A DNA stretch of 50,934 nt from a bacterium (GTDB lineage Bacteria > Patescibacteriota > Saccharimonadia > Saccharimonadales > Saccharimonadaceae). The notes under the pieces are model-generated. The model was not told the origin of the DNA, made no database searches, and saw nothing but the letters and a program-made list of their open reading frames with translations. The position numbers were made by a program, and so were the translations under genes. Shown piece after piece: positions 1,244 to 48,528 of the stretch (within the stretch, counting starts at the first letter, position 1; every line of letters starts with the position of its first letter). The DNA lies in assembly GCA_030431855.1 (NCBI GenBank), contig JAUIII010000005.1, positions 1 through 50,934 on the forward strand, given 5' to 3'.

Positions 1244-1963
1244 ATGAAATATCAAAACGGTTCTGCACATGTAATTTTCATTGGGGTGGTAGTTTTGCTT
1301 GTGGGTGCTTTGGGCTTTATTTTTTGGCAGAACTTTATACATAAGGAACAAGTTCCAGCCAATACTGATGCAAACGAGAACCTAGCTGAACAAGTCGATC
1401 AAAACGCAGGCTCTAAGAGCAAGTGTAAACCTGGCGAAAATGAAAACGCTACAAATAGAGTATTCTGTTCGGATGTCTACGGTGTTAAATTTACCATTCC
1501 TAGCGATTTTAAAAACAAATTGAAATTAGTCGCTAACGAGAAGATATACCCTGTACACTACACAGATTATAGACCTGAACCAATAGGAGAATCTGAGAGA
1601 ATTCTGAGCGCAGGTCTTACAAAAGACAAGGATAAAAATTCACTAACAATCACGCTCTATCCTCAAATCAACGATATGAATCTAGGTCTTTCGGGTGGTG
1701 CAAAATTTAATGAAAAGACTAGCAAAATAGTCTCTACGTCAAGCGGGGAAGTGTTTCCTGAATATCAATCAGTCACTTCAAACCAAGGTGTTAAGATTTA
1801 TAGGGGCAGTAACTACAGTGAGCTAGGTTTTATTCTCTACACAAACGCAGTCATCATTAAAGACAAGATCGTAAAGATTGAGCTCAGGCGCAGTTCAACA
1901 CAAGCACCTGCCGACTCACCTGCAGATGATGAGATAATATACTCGACTTTACAACTGCTGTAG
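1244..1963 (+). CDS. Membrane-anchored extracytoplasmic protein, function unknown
   Basis: A 239-residue protein not recognised as a named family. The N-terminus (a short KYQNG stretch, then G-x-A-H-V and about 22 hydrophobic residues ending F-W-Q) acts as an anchor or a pilin-like signal. After it comes a low-complexity Asn/Glu/Lys linker (about 38-70) with two Cys residues that could form a disulfide (about 59-73), then a beta-rich soluble domain to the end. Similar short anchors before unrelated outer domains are common in Saccharibacteria. The start has no close Shine-Dalgarno sequence; a GGGAGG lies 28 nt upstream, too far to be certain. The downstream gap 1964-2163 contains one copy of a 20-bp direct repeat and the promoter of the next gene. 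Confidence 0.75.
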   Translation: MKYQNGSAHVIFIGVVVLLVGALGFIFWQNFIHKEQVPANTDANENLAEQVDQNAGSKSKCKPGENENATNRVFCSDVYGVKFTIPSDFKNKLKLVANEKIYPVHYTDYRPEPIGESERILSAGLTKDKDKNSLTITLYPQINDMNLGLSGGAKFNEKTSKIVSTSSGEVFPEYQSVTSNQGVKIYRGSNYSELGFILYTNAVIIKDKIVKIELRRSSTQAPADSPADDEIIYSTLQLL

Positions 1964-2046
1964 TCCAGCTCTACTAGCCCTTCTCAGAAAACATGCTAGG
2001 GTTATACTGCCTATTCATTCTCTGGCTCTGTTGCGCTGCAGATTAG

Positions 2047-2066
2047 TTCTAACTTCAGCCAACCTG
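2047..2066 (+). repeat. 20-bp direct repeat, copy 1
   Basis: TTCTAACTTCAGCCAACCTG. The same 20 bases recur at 3135-3154 and similarity continues about 10 nt further (TACCAA). The two copies bracket the kinase gene at 2164-3129. Confidence 0.85.
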
Positions 2067-2163
2067 TTGTACCAAAACCGGAATTTGTCTATATTTATCT
2101 GTTACCAAAGTTCTGATATCACTTAGACCAGGCAGGAATTAGAAGCTTTGCTATTATGAGTGC

Positions 2164-3129
2164 ATGACATTCGACGATAGAATTGACTACAATGGTGATC
2201 TGCAAAAGGTTGTAGATAGAATTTGCGATGTATACGATATTGCGCTGAGTCGGAAATACAGTGTCATCAAAGTAGGCTTTGAAGACTTCAACTTAAAGAT
2301 CGAAACTCTCGACGGTAACTATCTTGCGAAGATATTTTCTAAAAAAAGGGATCATGCTGATATCTTGAGATACTCAACGACTCTTTCTGAAGTAGCGGGA
2401 AGCAAAGTCAATCATCCCAAGATATACAAAACAAAGGATAGTCAGCTTCTTTATACAGATCACGTATCTGGGTTAAAGCTCGTACTGATGGAGTTTGTAG
2501 AAGGTAAATCATTCTATGACTTGAAAAGGCTTCCATCCAACGATGAATTAGAGCAAATATGTCGAGAAGCGGTTAAAATTCATGCAATTAACTATAGTCC
2601 TGATTTTGTCTTCGACTCATGGGCAATACCAAACATGAAATGGATGTATGACAAAGTCAAAAATGATTTGAGTTCCGAAGGAATCCAACTTGTTGATAGA
2701 GCATTTGCATACTATGAATCCATACCATTTGATGATTTGCCAAAATGCTTCGTACATGGAGACTTAACAAAAGCTAACACTCTATTAGGAAATGATGGGA
2801 AATTATACGTAATTGACTTTGCGGTCTCTAACACATATCCACGTATACAAGAGCTTGCGGTAATGGCAGCGAATCTATTGTTTGACGAAAACAATGGCGC
2901 TTCACTTTCACTGAAAGACAGATGCGGACGAGTAAAAGATATATATGAAAAATGTGGCGGAGTGCTTTCAGACTTAGAAAAACTTCATTTATTTAACTAC
3001 GCGCTCCCTGCTGCAGCTATGGAATACATGGGAAGCGTCAATGAGCGCATTGTGGGTGATAATTCAGACGAAATCGCATACTGGGAGAAGCTCGGACTTG
3101 ATGGCTTACGTGAAGCTCTAGCAGACTAA
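2164..3129 (+). CDS. Aminoglycoside phosphotransferase-family (APH/choline kinase fold) small-molecule kinase
   Basis: A 321-residue protein with an APH-type kinase fold. The N-lobe runs over about residues 35-120 (a Tyr-Leu-Ala-Lys strand, then the hinge segment L-M-E-F-V-E-G). The catalytic loop HGDLTKAN lies near residue 199, followed by the metal-binding V-I-D-F motif. The general order matches homoserine kinase II and fructosamine or choline kinase relatives. The substrate cannot be told from sequence; a resistance role should not be assumed. TATTAT at 2152-2157 ends 6 nt before the ATG, so the mRNA is probably leaderless. Exact 20-bp direct repeats lie on both sides, which may mark the gene as an acquired cassette. 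Confidence 0.85.
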   Translation: MTFDDRIDYNGDLQKVVDRICDVYDIALSRKYSVIKVGFEDFNLKIETLDGNYLAKIFSKKRDHADILRYSTTLSEVAGSKVNHPKIYKTKDSQLLYTDHVSGLKLVLMEFVEGKSFYDLKRLPSNDELEQICREAVKIHAINYSPDFVFDSWAIPNMKWMYDKVKNDLSSEGIQLVDRAFAYYESIPFDDLPKCFVHGDLTKANTLLGNDGKLYVIDFAVSNTYPRIQELAVMAANLLFDENNGASLSLKDRCGRVKDIYEKCGGVLSDLEKLHLFNYALPAAAMEYMGSVNERIVGDNSDEIAYWEKLGLDGLREALAD

Positions 3130-39540: not shown

Positions 39541-42500
39541 CTATTTGCGATACAGTGTTATGTTCTTCGTGGTTGTTTTACCAGCGTTGACTGAAATGCT
39601 TATCTTGCGCGTTTTGTAGCCAGCTTTATTCACTGTCGCAGTGTACTTACCTGCTGGTATATTCTTTAGTACATACCACCCTGTCCTGTTAGTCTGAACA
39701 GATTTGTAGCTACCATCTACTTTTATACGCACCTTTACACCAGAAAGTCGTTTTCCGTTCGGACGTGTAATACGCCCATTAATCTTCCCTTTTGCTACCT
39801 CTGCTTTAGTGGTTACTTGTGCCGACTCACTATGCGAACTGAGGCTTCCCGCTGCGCTTTTCGCAATCACATAATACATGTATGTGGTGTCCGCGCGTAA
39901 GCTTTTGTCGGCATAGTTTGTTTTATCGGTAGTCGTAACTTTTTTACTATCGCGGTAAACAACGTAGGTGATGTTTTTATCGGCATCTGGGTTCACATTC
40001 CACGTAAGCGTAACCTGGCTTGAGGAGTTAGCCGTTGCCGTTAGCCCGGATGGCTGCAGGGGCGCGGTGCCTACAGTTGCACTATCGCTTTGACCACTTT
40101 GATTGCCCGAATCGTCACGTGCCACAATGTAGTAGCGATACGTTGTCGCGGTATTGAGGCCCGGGTCGTCATAGCTAGTTTCTGTGCTGGTAATAATTTT
40201 ATTACCATTACGGTAGATATCGTATGTTACGGCACTGCCCAAATCGGTGCTAGCAAGCCATTGCAGGCGTGCCGTGGTATTGTCGATGATGCTTGCTGTT
40301 ACATTGCCTGGTACTGTGGGTGGAGTAGTATCTGTGTTTCCTACTTGCACCGAGCGCTGCGCACTAGCGCTATTGCCTGCCTTGTCATAGCCTATGACCT
40401 TTATAGTATGAGTGCCATTCGTCGTGCCAGTCGTGTCCCACGAGTAACTATACGGGGATGCGGTATCAACCAAGCGCACAGTACCATCTACGTAGAATTC
40501 CACCTTATCGACTGTATTATCATCCGTCACCGACGCCTGTACATCAACTGTGTTCGACACAGTTGCGCCGCTTGTCGGAGAAACAATCAAGACGTCTGGC
40601 GCAGTACCATCCCCGCCTGCGCCTACAACAAAGTTGACTGTTTTGACCGCCCTATTCATGGCTCCGTCATACAACACTACCTTTAATTCATGGACACCTT
40701 TTGTATACTCATTCGTTCGTACATAAAACTTTTCAGATGTCTGTGATACCACATTTTCACGACGCTCTAGTTTTTCTTTATTATCCACATAGAACCGCAC
40801 GTTTTTCACACCATTGGGAGCATCATACGATGCAGTAATATTCTTGTTGGTGTTTATGGTCTCGCCGTTTGTGATATCAAGCGCTAATAGCGGGTCGCGA
40901 TCACCGGCCTGCTCCTTCTTAGTGAGGTTCGTCGATACCTGTTTGACAGTGCTTACATTTCCATCAGCATCAGCAAACTTTACATACAGGGTTTTTTGAC
41001 CAGTGGTATTTGAAAGCAAGTGTTCAAAGCTAAGCGTGTCTGTAGCTGCTGTTTTACTTTGCCAATAGTCCCCTGATTTATAGGTCATTACTCCAGATTC
41101 TGGGCCAAATGTTGCCGGAGAACTAGCTGTATCAGAATAACTTTCTGAAAAATTTGTTGTTGGCGGAGTTGCGTCTATGACTCGTATAAGGTCGCGGCCA
41201 TGTCCAGTTAACTCGTACGGTTCTGCTTCGATGACATGGTAAATCACCAGTCCACTACTCGTTAGGTTTCTATCGAAATTGTGCATGTTGTTTTCAAGAT
41301 TGTCTTTTTTTGAGCGCCATTCTAACAGCAGATATTCTGGACCTTTGTATTGTTTCATGCCTGTACTGCCTACCCTTGTAGCTAGACCCAAGTCTCCCGG
41401 AGCTATTAGGGGTATTTTTATAATTGACGTGCGGGAGGCGCTGGCCGAGCTACCAAATTCAGACCGGTACAAACGGACTGTCGTTGAAGCCTTGTCGAAT
41501 GGTAGCGTGTATGGCTGCACCTGCCCAAACATCGTTTTGTTTGGAGCACTCAGTAAACTCGGCTCGTAGTAGGTATAGGGTTCATACAGTGGATGTTTGG
41601 CGTACTCATTACCGCTGGCCATCAGATCAAAAGTATCAACCTTTGCAGGTGAATGATACAAATCACCAAGGTGGGTGCGTTCTGTGAATGAATACTTTGG
41701 CGTGTCAGAAAAATCATGCATAAATTCGTGCACCAAGTGCGGATACCAGTTGGCACCCATCACCCAATCTTTGCCCATTTCGCTCTCTTTGCTCGATGTT
41801 GCAGCATCGTATTCCACAACGACGCGTGCGTTGGCTTTTGGCAATGAAGAGCCGAGAGAAATTTTTGTAAACCTCGTATTTGCAGACGTCACCAAGCTTC
41901 CACCACTGTAATAATTTTTACCTGATTTCTTAGTGTCTGTCTCTAGCCAAACACCCTTAACTAAGCGCGGATTATAGCGAGTTACGACCGTGTTTGTATC
42001 ACTCGCAGTTCGTGTCTCTGTAATTGAATCTGCCAAAATAGAATTCTTCTCATCTACCGGCAGCAGACCGTATGTCAAAGAGTGGTGTATTGTACCAAAG
42101 TTGCCATTCGCTACTTCCGATAAAGTGTGTTGATAATTTGTTCGATCTACTGAATAAATGTCTGGCGAGAGAGCAAGTAGCATGTCAAAGTTCTTCGTAT
42201 CAAGATAGTCAGGTCGTTGGGCTTGAATGGCACGAAGCAAGTCAGCGTCGTAAGCAACCGTCGAGTTATCTTCTCGTAGCTTTCGGTACTTTTCCAGAGA
42301 TAAATGAACGATTGTTGGGTATACTTCACCTGTTAGGTTAATGCTTCCGTATGTTGATTGCCATACATAGTCACGGAAACTTTGGTTCTTGAAATACCCA
42401 TCAGGGCCAATTCCCGTGCTATCGCCATACACCAGACGGTTCGCCCACTTTGTGCTTACATAAGGGGCCATATTTGCCGACGAACCCGTGTCGTCATCGA

Positions 42501-42915
42501 AGACAAACAGTACCGTCAGCACCTTTATATCTTTTGTGCTAGATGGCAGCGAAAATGGTGTTGCCGATTCCGTGTTACTTCCAGATGGATAGGTGATGGA
42601 AAGATCAGCGTACGAATCGTCAGTGGCAACATTAGTAATTTTTAGCTCTGGGCCTTTTGCTTTGCCAAAATCAGCATCTTCCGACACGCTAAAATAACTC
42701 GTGTCACTGCATCCGCTCAAGGTGATATTTATCAGCCGCGTATCTGTTGAACTTGGCGCTGTAATACTACATTGCTGCAACGCGAGACCGTTTAAACCAA
42801 ATGCACTGGCCGCAACCAAGGCAACCAACACTACCACGGCTATCTTGGTCGAGCGCTTACTTTTTTGCACTATATTCTTTATTTTTACCACTGTCCGCCT
42901 CTTTTTCTTTATCAT
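39541..42915 (-). CDS. Large secreted M6-like metalloprotease with Ig, FN3 and carboxypeptidase-regulatory-like domains
   Basis: A 1124-residue protein. A basic cytoplasmic tail and a hydrophobic helix (about 24-46) export or anchor it. The catalytic domain (about 130-640) has the zinc motif HEFMH (396-400) and a downstream DLMASG block, as in M6/immune inhibitor A peptidases. Two Ig-like domains (about 680-870), two FN3 domains (about 875-1050) and a C-terminal carboxypeptidase-regulatory-like domain (about 1055-1124) follow. It is probably surface-displayed and could act on host or environmental proteins. I chose the ATG at 42915; a GTG at 42957 adds 14 residues of unlikely sequence. Confidence 0.88.
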   Translation of the reverse strand: MIKKKRRTVVKIKNIVQKSKRSTKIAVVVLVALVAASAFGLNGLALQQCSITAPSSTDTRLINITLSGCSDTSYFSVSEDADFGKAKGPELKITNVATDDSYADLSITYPSGSNTESATPFSLPSSTKDIKVLTVLFVFDDDTGSSANMAPYVSTKWANRLVYGDSTGIGPDGYFKNQSFRDYVWQSTYGSINLTGEVYPTIVHLSLEKYRKLREDNSTVAYDADLLRAIQAQRPDYLDTKNFDMLLALSPDIYSVDRTNYQHTLSEVANGNFGTIHHSLTYGLLPVDEKNSILADSITETRTASDTNTVVTRYNPRLVKGVWLETDTKKSGKNYYSGGSLVTSANTRFTKISLGSSLPKANARVVVEYDAATSSKESEMGKDWVMGANWYPHLVHEFMHDFSDTPKYSFTERTHLGDLYHSPAKVDTFDLMASGNEYAKHPLYEPYTYYEPSLLSAPNKTMFGQVQPYTLPFDKASTTVRLYRSEFGSSASASRTSIIKIPLIAPGDLGLATRVGSTGMKQYKGPEYLLLEWRSKKDNLENNMHNFDRNLTSSGLVIYHVIEAEPYELTGHGRDLIRVIDATPPTTNFSESYSDTASSPATFGPESGVMTYKSGDYWQSKTAATDTLSFEHLLSNTTGQKTLYVKFADADGNVSTVKQVSTNLTKKEQAGDRDPLLALDITNGETINTNKNITASYDAPNGVKNVRFYVDNKEKLERRENVVSQTSEKFYVRTNEYTKGVHELKVVLYDGAMNRAVKTVNFVVGAGGDGTAPDVLIVSPTSGATVSNTVDVQASVTDDNTVDKVEFYVDGTVRLVDTASPYSYSWDTTGTTNGTHTIKVIGYDKAGNSASAQRSVQVGNTDTTPPTVPGNVTASIIDNTTARLQWLASTDLGSAVTYDIYRNGNKIITSTETSYDDPGLNTATTYRYYIVARDDSGNQSGQSDSATVGTAPLQPSGLTATANSSSQVTLTWNVNPDADKNITYVVYRDSKKVTTTDKTNYADKSLRADTTYMYYVIAKSAAGSLSSHSESAQVTTKAEVAKGKINGRITRPNGKRLSGVKVRIKVDGSYKSVQTNRTGWYVLKNIPAGKYTATVNKAGYKTRKISISVNAGKTTTKNITLYRK

Positions 42916-42988
42916 ACAACGGCCCACACTTTGTAGTCTTGGCCAATTATGAGACACTTCTGGCTATAAATCAAGTTTTCCCGGGTAA

Positions 42989-44000: not shown

Positions 44001-44486
44001 TCAATGCTTCGCGTGTCTGCCGCCGTACTTAGGCATTCGCGTAAATAGAATGTCGACTACACCGATTACGAGACCAGCTGTTACAATATACACTCTGTTT
44101 TCTGCGATAACATCGTATACCGTTTTGCTCTCGCCGCTTAATAATAATCCGCTGCCAAGTGGCTCCACTAGCAGCGCTACCGCGAGCAGCGCAAAAAGAA
44201 ATGCCCCTATGAGTCTTTCTTGTGGTTTTCGATACACTGGACCACTAGCGAATAGAACGACTGCGGGCAGCAAGACGATTCCTGCAGCGACCAGAGTGAC
44301 CATTGGCGGCCGCTCCACAACCACACCAGCGTCCTGAATCAGTGGCGTTAATTTTTCTGCCCACAAATCACTCAGTAACGCACCGGCCGCAAGCGCGAGT
44401 GCTAACACGCCAAAACGTCGTTTGGTCAGGTAGGCAACGACAAAAAGTACGCCTAGTATCACTGCAAATAAAACGGCAATGTCCAT
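44001..44486 (-). CDS. Integral membrane protein, function unknown
   Basis: A 161-residue, strongly hydrophobic protein with five likely helices (about 2-20, 25-42, 62-80, 90-110 and 130-148). Length and regular helix spacing recall CvpA-like or small channel proteins, but no family motif is certain. TATACT (44495-44500 complement) ends 8 nt before the ATG. It follows rimK by only 18 nt, so read-through from the RimK operon is possible. Confidence 0.72.
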   Translation of the reverse strand: MDIAVLFAVILGVLFVVAYLTKRRFGVLALALAAGALLSDLWAEKLTPLIQDAGVVVERPPMVTLVAAGIVLLPAVVLFASGPVYRKPQERLIGAFLFALLAVALLVEPLGSGLLLSGESKTVYDVIAENRVYIVTAGLVIGVVDILFTRMPKYGGRHAKH

Positions 44487-44504: not shown

Positions 44505-45410
44505 TTATGCGCCGATTTTGTCTTTTTTCGGCTGGCGTTTAGCGTTTAGCTCAACGTATTCGATAATCTTTTCGGCCACATTACGACCAGTAATTGTCTC
44601 GGGTGTTTTAATACTAGCACTTGAATTTACTTCAAGTACAAGAGGTCCATTTTTCGATCGCATCATGTCTACACCACAAATAGGAAGTCCCATCGCTTTC
44701 GCGGCTTTAATGGCAGTCTTACGCTCCTCTTCAGTCAGCTTTACCACCACGCCTTCTCCGCCTTGGTGAGTATTGCTACGAAAATCACCGTCAAGGCTTT
44801 GACGTTTGACGCTCGCAACTACGCGACCGCCTACTACGAGCGCACGGATGTCCGTGCCTGCAGATTCTTCAATAAACTGTTGCACGAGAAAGTTTACGCC
44901 TTCAACATAAAAGGCTTGCATTACCGCTTTGGCGGCTTTCGGCGTTTCCGCCAATACTACACCGTTGCCGTGGGTACCGCGTGCAACTTTGATAATAAGC
45001 GGTGCCCCTCCGGCTAGTTCTACAATGTCTTCAAAGCTCGCCGACTCGCGCGCAAACACAGTTTTAGGAATACCCACGCCTGCTTTGGCGAGTACCTGGT
45101 ATGCGCGTAGTTTATCGCGCGATCGATTGATGGCTAGCGAACTCGCTGTTGTAAACGTACCTTGTGACTCAAACTGACGAACAATTGCCGAACCGTACTT
45201 TGTATAACTCTGTGCGATACGTGGAATAATGGCATCAAATTTTTCCAAGCTTGCACCTTTATAGCGCACCACGTTATTATTCGTTTCAACTGCTGTATAG
45301 CAGTCTTTATATTTAATGACTTTCACTTCGTGCCCACGTTTAATCGCCTCTTCTTTGAGTCGCTTGGTGGTGTAATTGGCAGGACCGTTACTTAGGATTG
45401 CAATTTTCAT
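44505..45410 (-). CDS. rimK: RimK-family ATP-grasp peptide ligase
   Basis: A 301-residue protein close to RimK, which adds glutamate residues to the C-terminus of ribosomal protein S6 (and can make poly-glutamate). An N-terminal pre-ATP-grasp domain (1-95) is followed by the ATP-grasp core: PLIIKVARGTHGNGVVL, the FIEESAGTDIRALVVGG metal region, and the final VLEVNSSAS motif. It overlaps the RimB gene by 4 nt. The target in this organism is unknown; S6 is the family default. Confidence 0.93.
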   Translation of the reverse strand: MKIAILSNGPANYTTKRLKEEAIKRGHEVKVIKYKDCYTAVETNNNVVRYKGASLEKFDAIIPRIAQSYTKYGSAIVRQFESQGTFTTASSLAINRSRDKLRAYQVLAKAGVGIPKTVFARESASFEDIVELAGGAPLIIKVARGTHGNGVVLAETPKAAKAVMQAFYVEGVNFLVQQFIEESAGTDIRALVVGGRVVASVKRQSLDGDFRSNTHQGGEGVVVKLTEEERKTAIKAAKAMGLPICGVDMMRSKNGPLVLEVNSSASIKTPETITGRNVAEKIIEYVELNAKRQPKKDKIGA

Positions 45411-45886
45411 AGGGCCTCACTTTCAGTAAATTCTTTTTTCTCTTCAGGATACTTGTATACCATTGCCTCGCCAGGATCTGCGCTATCTACTAAGAAGTTG
45501 CCGCGCAATGTATTTCGTCCAATTAATATTGGGTAGGTTTGCGTTGATCTATCCGACAAAGTAAATTTTGCATTCAATCGTTTGCCGTGAAGGCGTATCG
45601 ACATGTGTACAACATAGCGAGTTTGCTCATGACCAGTAGAACTTGTCACTTCACGAGTGCCTACTACAGGCCTTTTTACCACCTTACCTGTGTAATATTT
45701 TGAACCAACACCGAACAGCTTGAATGTAGCAACTTCGTTTTCCACCGAGATATCAGACGCCCAAAGCGATGACGTACGAGCACCTGTATCGATGCGCGCA
45801 GGAATTGCTTTCAGATTCTTATAGCCAACAAAATCAACCAGTGATGATACACCAATTACTGTGTCTGGTAGCTTGTTGGATGTCAT
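45407..45886 (-). CDS. rimB: RimB-like retropepsin-type aspartic protease
   Basis: A 159-residue protein of the DUF785/PF05618 family, called RimB when beside rimK. The active-site Asp33-Thr-Gly is in ARIDTGARTSSLWAS, with the second conserved block LIGRNTLRGNFLVD. RimB trims poly-glutamate tails made by RimK. The ATG at 45886 was chosen because TACAAT (45894-45899 complement) overlaps the ATG at 45895 and ends 7 nt before 45886. It overlaps rimK by 4 nt. Confidence 0.88.
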   Translation of the reverse strand: MTSNKLPDTVIGVSSLVDFVGYKNLKAIPARIDTGARTSSLWASDISVENEVATFKLFGVGSKYYTGKVVKRPVVGTREVTSSTGHEQTRYVVHMSIRLHGKRLNAKFTLSDRSTQTYPILIGRNTLRGNFLVDSADPGEAMVYKYPEEKKEFTESEAL

Positions 45887-45910
45887 ATTGCTCATTGTAA
45901 CACCTTTACC

Positions 45911-47365
45911 CTACGCAGCTTCCTGAAGATATGTTTGCACTTGCTTGGCTTCATCGTCTGTTCCGGTGTGGTCGTACTTTGCCACCAACGATGTCACAAG
46001 CGCTTTCTTAATATTAGCTGCTTGCATATAGTATTCGCCATTTTTTTGTAGGCCTTCATAGTACATTTTAAGTTTACGGTAAATAACGCCAGGCATTGTT
46101 TGCGGTGTGCCTCGAAACGCGTTATCTACGTGTGCGAAGGCAAGATCTTTGGCCTGGGATAGTAGCATATCAGTCATTTCACTACCATTTGCTAAGCGAA
46201 CTGCAATAACGCGCCATGCAATTTCAAATGTTTGTCGAGCGTCACGCGGTGCATCATCAATGCCCAAAGCCAGACCAGCGACAATGTAGCGGTCACGAGC
46301 GCGGTTCATTGATGGATTATCAAGATTGCCTGCCAGAGCGCATTCGAAAAGTACGCCTTCACCTTCTTCTACGTCTGCATACTTTGCGGTGCCGTACTTC
46401 AAAGCACGAAGACCAGCTTCCTCGCCGTTCTGCCCACGCAGGGCATGTACGCCTATTTCGTGAACCAGTAGTCGACGTAGTTCATCAGCAGTACGCAGTG
46501 TTGTTTCAGGCATTTTTACTAATTTGTCTTCTACTTCAGTTGATGGAATCGAAATAGATGGGTCAACCACAGTGCGCCAGTCTTTTTCGTAGAGTCCCTG
46601 AGCGCGTAGTGCGTTGTCGATAATATCTTTGCACTCGTCCGCACCATATTTCACTGTTTCATCTGTATCAGGTACAGCAGCAAGCATGTCTATAAAGTAT
46701 TCAAGCAGGACCTCACGTAGTGCACCTAGTGTTTCAGCATCAATAATTTCAGCCTCTTCGGTATTAAGCTTTTTGCCTTCGAAGTACTGCTCTAACTGTT
46801 CCTTTACACGAATACCGTTTTCGTCACTTGGAGCGTACGCGGCTAGACGATTCCGTTCGGTTGTCATGATACCTTCGAATGTTGGTACGTCAATTTCACC
46901 AAATAGCGTTTCGTTCAGTGATACGAACTCATCTGCTGCTAGCTCCTGTTCTGCAGCGCCACCTACAGTCTGCAAACGATGTGCTGATTCAGCCAGCATC
47001 ATCTTCTGTAAGTATGACTCATGCATGCCCGCGCTTAAGTCGTACTCTTCGTCAGATAATTCACCAGATGCACGGTTTGCCTCAAGCTCTAGTACGGCCC
47101 TGTAGGTACGGCTCTTCCTGTCAGAGATCGATTCTTTTATCCTTGTCTCTTTAGATCCTGGCGCAGCTTTTACTTCGTAGCCGAAATCATACAACGTACT
47201 GAGTTCTGGGTATGTGTAAGTAGGGGTGTAGCTTTTACCAGCAATAAACGCATCTTTTTGCTGCTTCAACTCTTTTTTTCCACGAGCAAAGTCAAGATAC
47301 TCGATATATACGCTATCGGTTTCGGTGTAAGCTTTTTGGGCGGTATAGCTTTCGTACGTGCTCAT
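45911..47365 (-). CDS. DUF1704/MATCAP-like metallopeptidase beside RimK-RimB
   Basis: A 484-residue cytoplasmic protein of the DUF1704 (PF08014) family. The zinc site HEIGVH is at 302-307, with the downstream EEGEGVLFE motif (333-341) in the place of the family's QEGLA motif. Eukaryotic members (MATCAP) remove the C-terminal tyrosine of tubulin, so a C-terminal trimming role on a RimK product is a reasonable inference. The N-terminal 290 residues are helical and charged. Its promoter is the best in the window and carries a palindrome. It lies 24 nt upstream of rimB on the same strand, although rimB has its own -10 box. Confidence 0.87.
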   Translation of the reverse strand: MSTYESYTAQKAYTETDSVYIEYLDFARGKKELKQQKDAFIAGKSYTPTYTYPELSTLYDFGYEVKAAPGSKETRIKESISDRKSRTYRAVLELEANRASGELSDEEYDLSAGMHESYLQKMMLAESAHRLQTVGGAAEQELAADEFVSLNETLFGEIDVPTFEGIMTTERNRLAAYAPSDENGIRVKEQLEQYFEGKKLNTEEAEIIDAETLGALREVLLEYFIDMLAAVPDTDETVKYGADECKDIIDNALRAQGLYEKDWRTVVDPSISIPSTEVEDKLVKMPETTLRTADELRRLLVHEIGVHALRGQNGEEAGLRALKYGTAKYADVEEGEGVLFECALAGNLDNPSMNRARDRYIVAGLALGIDDAPRDARQTFEIAWRVIAVRLANGSEMTDMLLSQAKDLAFAHVDNAFRGTPQTMPGVIYRKLKMYYEGLQKNGEYYMQAANIKKALVTSLVAKYDHTGTDDEAKQVQTYLQEAA

Positions 47366-47400
47366 GCTTAAATATTAGCATATTATTGCTAATATGTCAA
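47366..47400 (-). promoter_or_regulatory. Promoter with palindromic operator of the DUF1704 gene
   Basis: Minus strand: TTGACA (47395-47400), 17-nt spacer, TAATAT (47372-47377), then 6 nt to the ATG, a consensus-like leaderless promoter. A perfect 9-6-9 inverted repeat ATATTAGCA/TGCTAATAT (47372-47395) fills the spacer and covers the -10 box, as expected for a repressor site. The half-sites resemble the outer part of CIRCE, but the spacing is far too short. Confidence 0.78.
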
Positions 47401-47418: not shown

Positions 47419-48528
47419 CTAGCTAAACAGGCTCCGCTTCTTGGCGGTATCAAACTGCTCAAGTAACTCTTTTTGTTTTTTAGAAAGTTTCGTTGGAATA
47501 TCTACGATAATCGACACGATATGCGCACCTCTGCGCTCACTGCGTAGGTGTGGCACGCCGTGGCTACTGAGTTTAAAGTCTGTCCCACTTTGGGTGCCAG
47601 CTGGTACCTTCATTTTTACTGTTCCATCGACTGTATCGACGTCGATTTCAGTTCCCAGTGCGGCATCTACCATCGAAATATGCTCTTCACTGAGAATTAA
47701 ATCGCCTTCTCGAGTAAACTTTTTGTGTGCTTTTACACGAATGTGCACGTACAAATCGCCTTTTGGACCATTCGCCATCGCTTCGCCGCGCTCTTTCAGA
47801 CGAATCGTGGCGCCGTCGTCGATACCGGCGGGAATTTTAATCGTTATCGCTTGCTTGCGTCGCTCGGTACCTTTACCACGGCACACACTACATACTTTTT
47901 CTGGTACCTTACCCCTACCGTTACAGTCATCACACACAACGGCTTGCTGAATCGCGCCGAACATCGTGTTCATCACACGGGTACGTTGGCCTGCGCCTTT
48001 ACATGTTTCACAAGTTTTCATGCTGTGGCCTGGCTCTACTGTTGTACCCTTACAATGTGAACACTCGTCATCTAGGTGTAATTCGATCTCACGCTCGACG
48101 CCAAATATTGCTTCTTCAAAACTTAAATTGATTTGCGTTTCTACGTCACGACCTCGTTGTGGACCACGCGATGTTTGTCCACCACCAAAGAACTGACCAA
48201 AAATGTCACCTAGTCCGCCATCACCAAAGTCGAAATGAACATTTTGCCCATTAAATCCACCAAACCCTTCAAATGGATTTCCGCCACCATAGCCTCCGCC
48301 GCCACTTGCACCGCCAACTCCGGCGTGGCCGAATTGATCGTATCGCTGACGTTTTTGTTTGTCTTTTAAGACTTCGTAGGCTTCGTTGGCTTCCTTAAAT
48401 TTCGTCTCGTCACCACCTTCTTTATCAGGGTGGTATTTTACCGCAAGCTTACGAAACGCCTTCTTGATTTCATCATCAGAAGCGTTTTTTTCTACACCTA
48501 AAACTTCGTAGTAATCGCGTTTTGACAT
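47419..48528 (-). CDS. dnaJ: DnaJ co-chaperone
   Basis: A 369-residue type I J-protein. The J domain has HPD (KYHPDKEG); a Gly/Phe-rich linker follows (about 75-120), then four CxxCxGxG-type zinc repeats ([30 protein letters not shown]) and the two C-terminal substrate domains. It stimulates DnaK, which is encoded 1.6 kb upstream on the same strand. A CIRCE element covers its promoter, so it should be repressed by HrcA and induced by heat. Confidence 0.97.

Follow-up and report, generated by a model that had tools for sequence, protein, structure and literature searches.

The window analysed here, the whole 50,934-nt stretch of the Saccharimonadaceae contig JAUIII010000005.1 (assembly GCA_030431855.1; Saccharibacteria, Saccharimonadia), carries three adjoining genes on its minus strand that encode a RimK-type glutamate ligase, a RimB-type retropepsin-like protease and a metallopeptidase of the DUF1704/MATCAP family. 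We propose, with a probability of roughly 60%, that this locus is a reversible C-terminal glutamate-tail module, in which RimK would write the tails, RimB and MATCAP would trim them and ribosomal protein S6 is a plausible target. The proposal builds on the genes themselves with their intact protease motifs, on the fold predicted for the MATCAP protein, on conserved linkage and co-occurrence of the genes, and on proteins elsewhere in the phylum in which the corresponding domains are joined in one polypeptide.

Enzyme families of the locus

The three genes are as follows (lengths in amino acids, aa):

44505..45410, minus strand: RimK, alpha-L-glutamate ligase (ATP-grasp), 301 aa; Pfam RimK E = 1.2e-56, Rimk_N E = 1.2e-33
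45407..45895, minus strand: RimB, retropepsin-like aspartic protease, 162 aa; PF05618 E = 1.3e-19, DTG motif intact
45911..47365, minus strand: DUF1704/MATCAP-family metallopeptidase, 484 aa; PF08014 E = 5e-12, HExxxH at H302, E303 and H307, E334 in an EEG motif

The initial annotation had described three genes adjoining on one strand; its coordinates are correct, and the families were confirmed by Pfam and NCBIfam. RimK combines the Rimk_N and RimK ATP-grasp domains and aligns near its full length with the characterised enzymes of Pseudomonas (7qyr, E = 2.7e-89) and E. coli (4iwx, E = 1.4e-81), scoring 314.6 bits against NF007764, slightly under the 331-bit equivalog cut-off. RimB carries the PF05618 domain with its DTG catalytic motif (ARIDTGARTSSL), the surrounding RIDTGARTSSL being undamaged; its top NCBIfam model is NF052261 RimB, with a score under the cut-off of that model, and DTG is present in 73 of 79 RimB-type matches. 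The MATCAP protein reaches 45.8 bits against PF08014 (curated cut-off 27) and has both HExxxH and EEG, E334 of the latter being the presumed third metal ligand. Residues H302, E303, H307, E334 and G335 do not vary among 21 family members or within a 19-sequence phylum-wide set. Judged from their motifs, both proteases of the window look active.

An AlphaFold2 model of the MATCAP protein (predicted local distance difference test score, pLDDT, 89) superimposes on human MATCAP (7z5g/7z6s) in VIA-align (Z 20.1; 271 residues; 3.5 Å), the next matches being two putative lipoproteins (Z 12.4) and M32 carboxypeptidases (near 9), and the protein is thus predicted to share the fold of the human enzyme. 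Foldseek with the same model returned no significant match, nor did a single-sequence search with the window protein against the PDB. The family alignment profile does recover 7z5g (E = 1.1e-8), with HExxxH and EEG in register, and more remote relatives have MATCAP domains that match this structure with better scores (E = 4.9e-16 and 9.2e-24). Against the QEGLA model (TIGR02421) the protein scores 42.7 bits, and since this is far under the equivalog cut-off of 338.65, it is by sequence a distant member of the wider QEGLA-type family. Its closest named relatives by MATCAP identity are those of bacterium isolate 6_bin.24 (92%) and of Candidatus Saccharibacteria UBA6664 and UBA1050 (60%).

Linkage in the family and fusions in the phylum

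In the window the genes run head to tail on the minus strand in the order dnaJ, MATCAP, RimB, RimK and then a gene for a small membrane protein of 161 aa, the trio (44505-47365) being flanked by dnaJ and the membrane protein gene. MATCAP follows dnaJ after 53 bp, RimB follows MATCAP after 15 bp, RimB and RimK overlap by 4 bp, and the membrane protein gene lies 18 bp beyond RimK; because of the overlap and the 15- and 53-bp gaps, the run from dnaJ to RimK is likely a single transcription unit.

A gene-neighbourhood survey had been named beforehand in the initial annotation, which took the absence of conserved linkage in related genomes as its refutation. Among 198 genomes of the window's family (RimK in 160, RimB in 152, MATCAP in 65), MATCAP lies no more than 5 kb from RimB or RimK in 42 of the 65 MATCAP-bearing genomes, from 21 genera, so the linkage is conserved and refutation on this ground fails. 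Random placement in a genome of about 0.9 Mb predicts about one such linked genome versus the 42 observed. MATCAP was also found in 64 of 160 genomes with RimK versus 1 of 38 without it (p = 1.5e-6) and, when only genomes at least 90% complete are counted, in 55 of 122 versus 0 of 17, in comparisons that ignore the shared ancestry of the genomes. Several relatives devoid of MATCAP have dnaJ, rimB and rimK contiguous; the core is therefore the rimB-rimK pair beside dnaJ, with MATCAP as an optional gene in a fixed slot between dnaJ and rimB. In one genus of the family (g12; for example in G011, G109, G136, G159 and G188), genes for MATCAP proteins of about 420-450 aa are unlinked to RimB and RimK, and the MATCAP of this genus may have another partner.

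The identical arrangement of dnaJ, MATCAP, RimB and RimK recurs in a sister family within the same order (L218). Many sister loci of the window locus carry a second ATP-grasp gene, the one that was tested having its best matches among cyanophycin and N-acetylglutaminylglutamine synthetases, and RimB occurs fused to an ATP-grasp domain, in both orders. Five loci of the same order (L098, L099, L100, L110, L217) hold MATCAP, a second ATP-grasp gene and RimK, with RimB not nearby. In locus L095, RimK is separated from a RimB-ATP-grasp fusion by a Mur-ligase gene (1610-2902, minus strand), and another ATP-grasp gene lies upstream; the polymer chemistry there may be a different one.

Fusions of these domains come from a phylum sample of 380 genomes, 86 of which have MATCAP. 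Here, 28 of the 30 best loci encode a single open reading frame of about 770-840 residues made up of an N-terminal, a middle and a C-terminal MATCAP domain; at least 28 such fusions were verified, and frame lengths suggest 34. In five fusions searched against libraries, the N end matched the alpha-L-glutamate-ligase-like model TIGR02291 and the C end MATCAP/QEGLA (TIGR02421). In hhalign the middle domain could be aligned with RimB (probability 96.7%, E = 3e-10), and its model has its best structural matches in RloA and a DUF785 protein, both retropepsins (Foldseek E = 7.7e-6, VIA Z 12-13). Ligase residues D247, E260 and N262 are conserved in at least 95% of the fusions and HExxxH, a motif that also served to select them, in 28 of 28, whereas D[TS]G is retained in just 4 of 28 by aligned count; the fused protein thus keeps ligase and metallopeptidase, the aspartic protease being mostly lost. 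Outside the family, 17 of 20 further loci picked have an ATP-grasp gene adjoining or joined to MATCAP, and in Rhizobiaceae plasmids a QEGLA gene stands between those for an N-formylglutamate amidohydrolase and a glutathione-synthetase-type enzyme.

Taken together, the fusions, the degenerate retropepsin within them and the loci with MATCAP in the absence of RimB point to MATCAP as a working eraser that can stand in for RimB. Because most fused proteins carry a degenerate retropepsin, the two trimmers probably substitute for each other as often as they cooperate. The tag cycle of one ligase and two unrelated trimmers that the initial annotation proposed draws strong support from gene association (linkage, co-occurrence with RimK, 28 fusions), with the refinements that MATCAP is optional and that the trimmers are probably often alternatives.

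In one phylum family (f29; L200, L201, L202, L204, L205), MATCAP lies directly beside or at most two genes from a gene for an MreB-like actin homologue in 5 of 5 loci examined, which puts a relative of a tubulin-tail enzyme next to a cytoskeletal gene of bacteria; these MreB proteins do not have Glu-rich C-termini.

Proposed reactions, target and competing explanations

From the genes and their association we infer the catalytic activities, their glutamate specificity, the target and the action of MATCAP on RimK products. RimK would attach alpha-linked glutamates to an acidic C-terminus, with S6 (ending -SEEE) as the most plausible substrate. RimB would clip the poly-glutamate tail endoproteolytically and would probably also stimulate RimK, in line with Pseudomonas RimB, which clips poly-glutamate tails, acts on RpsF and stimulates RimK (PMC11957791). 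MATCAP would act as a metal-dependent carboxypeptidase that takes off C-terminal glutamates singly, much as human MATCAP2/TMCP2, which prefers C-terminal Glu and Ala, removes polyglutamate from tubulin; the Tetrahymena TMCP is likewise a deglutamylase (PMC10499314). The initial annotation had cited detyrosination of tubulin by eukaryotic DUF1704 proteins, a relevant parallel that was nonetheless drawn too narrowly: because TMCP2 and its Tetrahymena homologue remove glutamate, the detyrosination label understates the relevance.

In the host genome (830 kb, 28 contigs), S6 ends in KKDAGEDSEEE, which is compatible with glutamate addition by RimK rather than proof of it. A scan of this genome found -EEE followed by a stop at only two sites, S6 and a small Fur-like regulator (133 aa; G000:C18 around 45005, L169 816-1217), the latter being a possible second RimK target.

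Several observations weigh against the glutamate-tail module. Among 51 genomes, S6 tails ending in D or E are as common without RimK (13 of 21) as with it (19 of 30), so that co-variation does not single out S6, which we keep as a plausible target. In 23 of the 65 MATCAP-bearing family genomes the gene lies more than 5 kb from RimB and RimK, in a few cases perhaps owing to contig breaks. Over 271 residues the window MATCAP is only 17% identical to the human protein, and biochemistry of prokaryotic DUF1704 proteins was not found in the literature searched. Finally, MATCAP occurs in 7 of 10 RimK genomes that lack RimB versus 57 of 150 that have it, a difference that is not significant (p = 0.09) and leaves replacement of RimB by MATCAP in these genomes at the level of a trend.

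The absent co-variation between S6 tails and RimK would fit a module for the synthesis and turnover of free poly-alpha-glutamate or some other short peptide, as storage compound or osmoprotectant, with RimK polymerising and RimB and MATCAP degrading a product other than protein tails. RimK does make free poly-alpha-glutamate, stimulated by RimB (PMC11957791), and rlo operons tie retropepsin and ATP-grasp enzymes to osmotic stress (PMC12239564). The second ATP-grasp gene of many sister loci, given the resemblance of the tested one to cyanophycin and N-acetylglutaminylglutamine synthetases, and the Mur ligase of L095 point the same way. The window locus, however, has the canonical RimK only and lacks a second ATP-grasp gene, and S6 retains its -EEE end, one of two such sites in the genome. 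We rate a free poly-glutamate or cyanophycin-like product as unlikely for this locus, while regarding it as the main rival, above all at loci with a second ATP-grasp gene.

That MATCAP primes rather than erases, by removing non-glutamate residues so that RimK can start, or by maturing some other protein, appears less probable still. Human MATCAP1 takes off a C-terminal Tyr, and some S6 tails in RimK-bearing relatives have non-glutamate ends; against this, the host S6 is already Glu-terminated, a feature shared by roughly half of the MATCAP-bearing relatives that were compared, and both MATCAP2 and the Tetrahymena TMCP act as deglutamylases (PMC10499314). Chance adjacency of co-transcribed housekeeping genes beside dnaJ, itself a frequent neighbour probably unrelated to the mechanism, can hardly be upheld in the face of linkage in 21 genera, near-exclusive co-occurrence with RimK, the fusions known from other families (at least 28), which already contradict it, and DUF1704 beside a glutathione-synthetase-type gene in Rhizobiaceae plasmids as well.

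Surroundings, known systems and significance

The features bordering the trio are:

47419..48528, minus strand: dnaJ (Pfam DnaJ/DnaJ_C), a common upstream neighbour of the locus
47372..47400, minus strand: promoter-like TTGACA-17-TAATAT with TG before the -10 element, in the dnaJ-MATCAP gap, stopping just ahead of the MATCAP start; weak evidence
44001..44486, minus strand: 161-aa membrane protein with no Pfam match, directly downstream of RimK

In many relatives dnaJ lies upstream of MATCAP or immediately upstream of RimB, and it is probably a flank outside the mechanism. In a promoter scan, sites of this kind turned up at least as often in shuffled sequence. Of 100 surveyed loci, many of them short fragments around RimB/RimK, 48 have a homologue of the 161-aa membrane protein, placed right after RimK or with a single gene in between. 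Farther along, 39541-42957 (minus strand) encodes a probably secreted protein of 1138 aa with an HEF-type metalloprotease-like region and Ig, fn3 and carboxypeptidase-regulatory domains.

Among bacterial glutamate-tail cycles, that of RimK and RimB has been studied best. With the Pseudomonas rimABK system, RimBK hybrid included, the window shares adjoining RimK and RimB of the same families, a RimK alignable near its full length and an acidic-tailed S6; it differs in that MATCAP is inserted between dnaJ and rimB and that the locus is without RimA, and the sister loci add ATP-grasp genes and RimB-ATP-grasp fusions in both orders. With the human tubulin carboxypeptidases MATCAP1/2 (TMCP1/2) and their TTLL glutamylases, the bacterial system shares the MATCAP fold, HExxxH...EEG and the pairing of an ATP-grasp-type glutamate ligase with a putative MATCAP eraser; it differs in that the pair resides in a bacterial operon or a single fused protein. 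The rlo operon (RloA retropepsin, RloB, RloC ATP-grasp) likewise combines retropepsin and ATP-grasp, but its RloA is periplasmic and it has no MATCAP. In the proteobacterial QEGLA (TIGR02421) operon (N-formylglutamate amidohydrolase, QEGLA, glutathione-synthetase-like) a DUF1704 enzyme also sits beside an ATP-grasp-type ligase gene; the ligase is of a different subfamily, an amidohydrolase is added, and RimK and RimB do not occur in the stretch.

RimK-RimB, the RimBK hybrid, the rlo operon and the MATCAP deglutamylases are already published. For the combined system, which the initial annotation had called uncharacterised, our literature search, in which a 2009 amidoligase survey was not covered, found no paper linking DUF1704 with RimK or RimB. 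The survey in question, by Iyer et al., reportedly treats links of ATP-grasp ligases to several peptidases, and part of the DUF1704 linkage may therefore have been noticed before.

Linkage and fusions assign DUF1704 a specific, testable role as eraser of tails made by ATP-grasp ligases, and the fusion of about 800 residues offers a handy single protein for testing both reactions. They also suggest that the writer/eraser logic of the tubulin code has a precedent in bacteria. Tentatively, and with somewhat more doubt than confidence, we extend this to the notion that DUF1704/MATCAP proteins were in origin erasers of bacterial ATP-grasp polyglutamylation, that the ligase-pseudoretropepsin-MATCAP fusion of Patescibacteria would be a self-contained writer/eraser, and that the eukaryotic TTLL/MATCAP pair acting on tubulin may re-use an older bacterial partnership.
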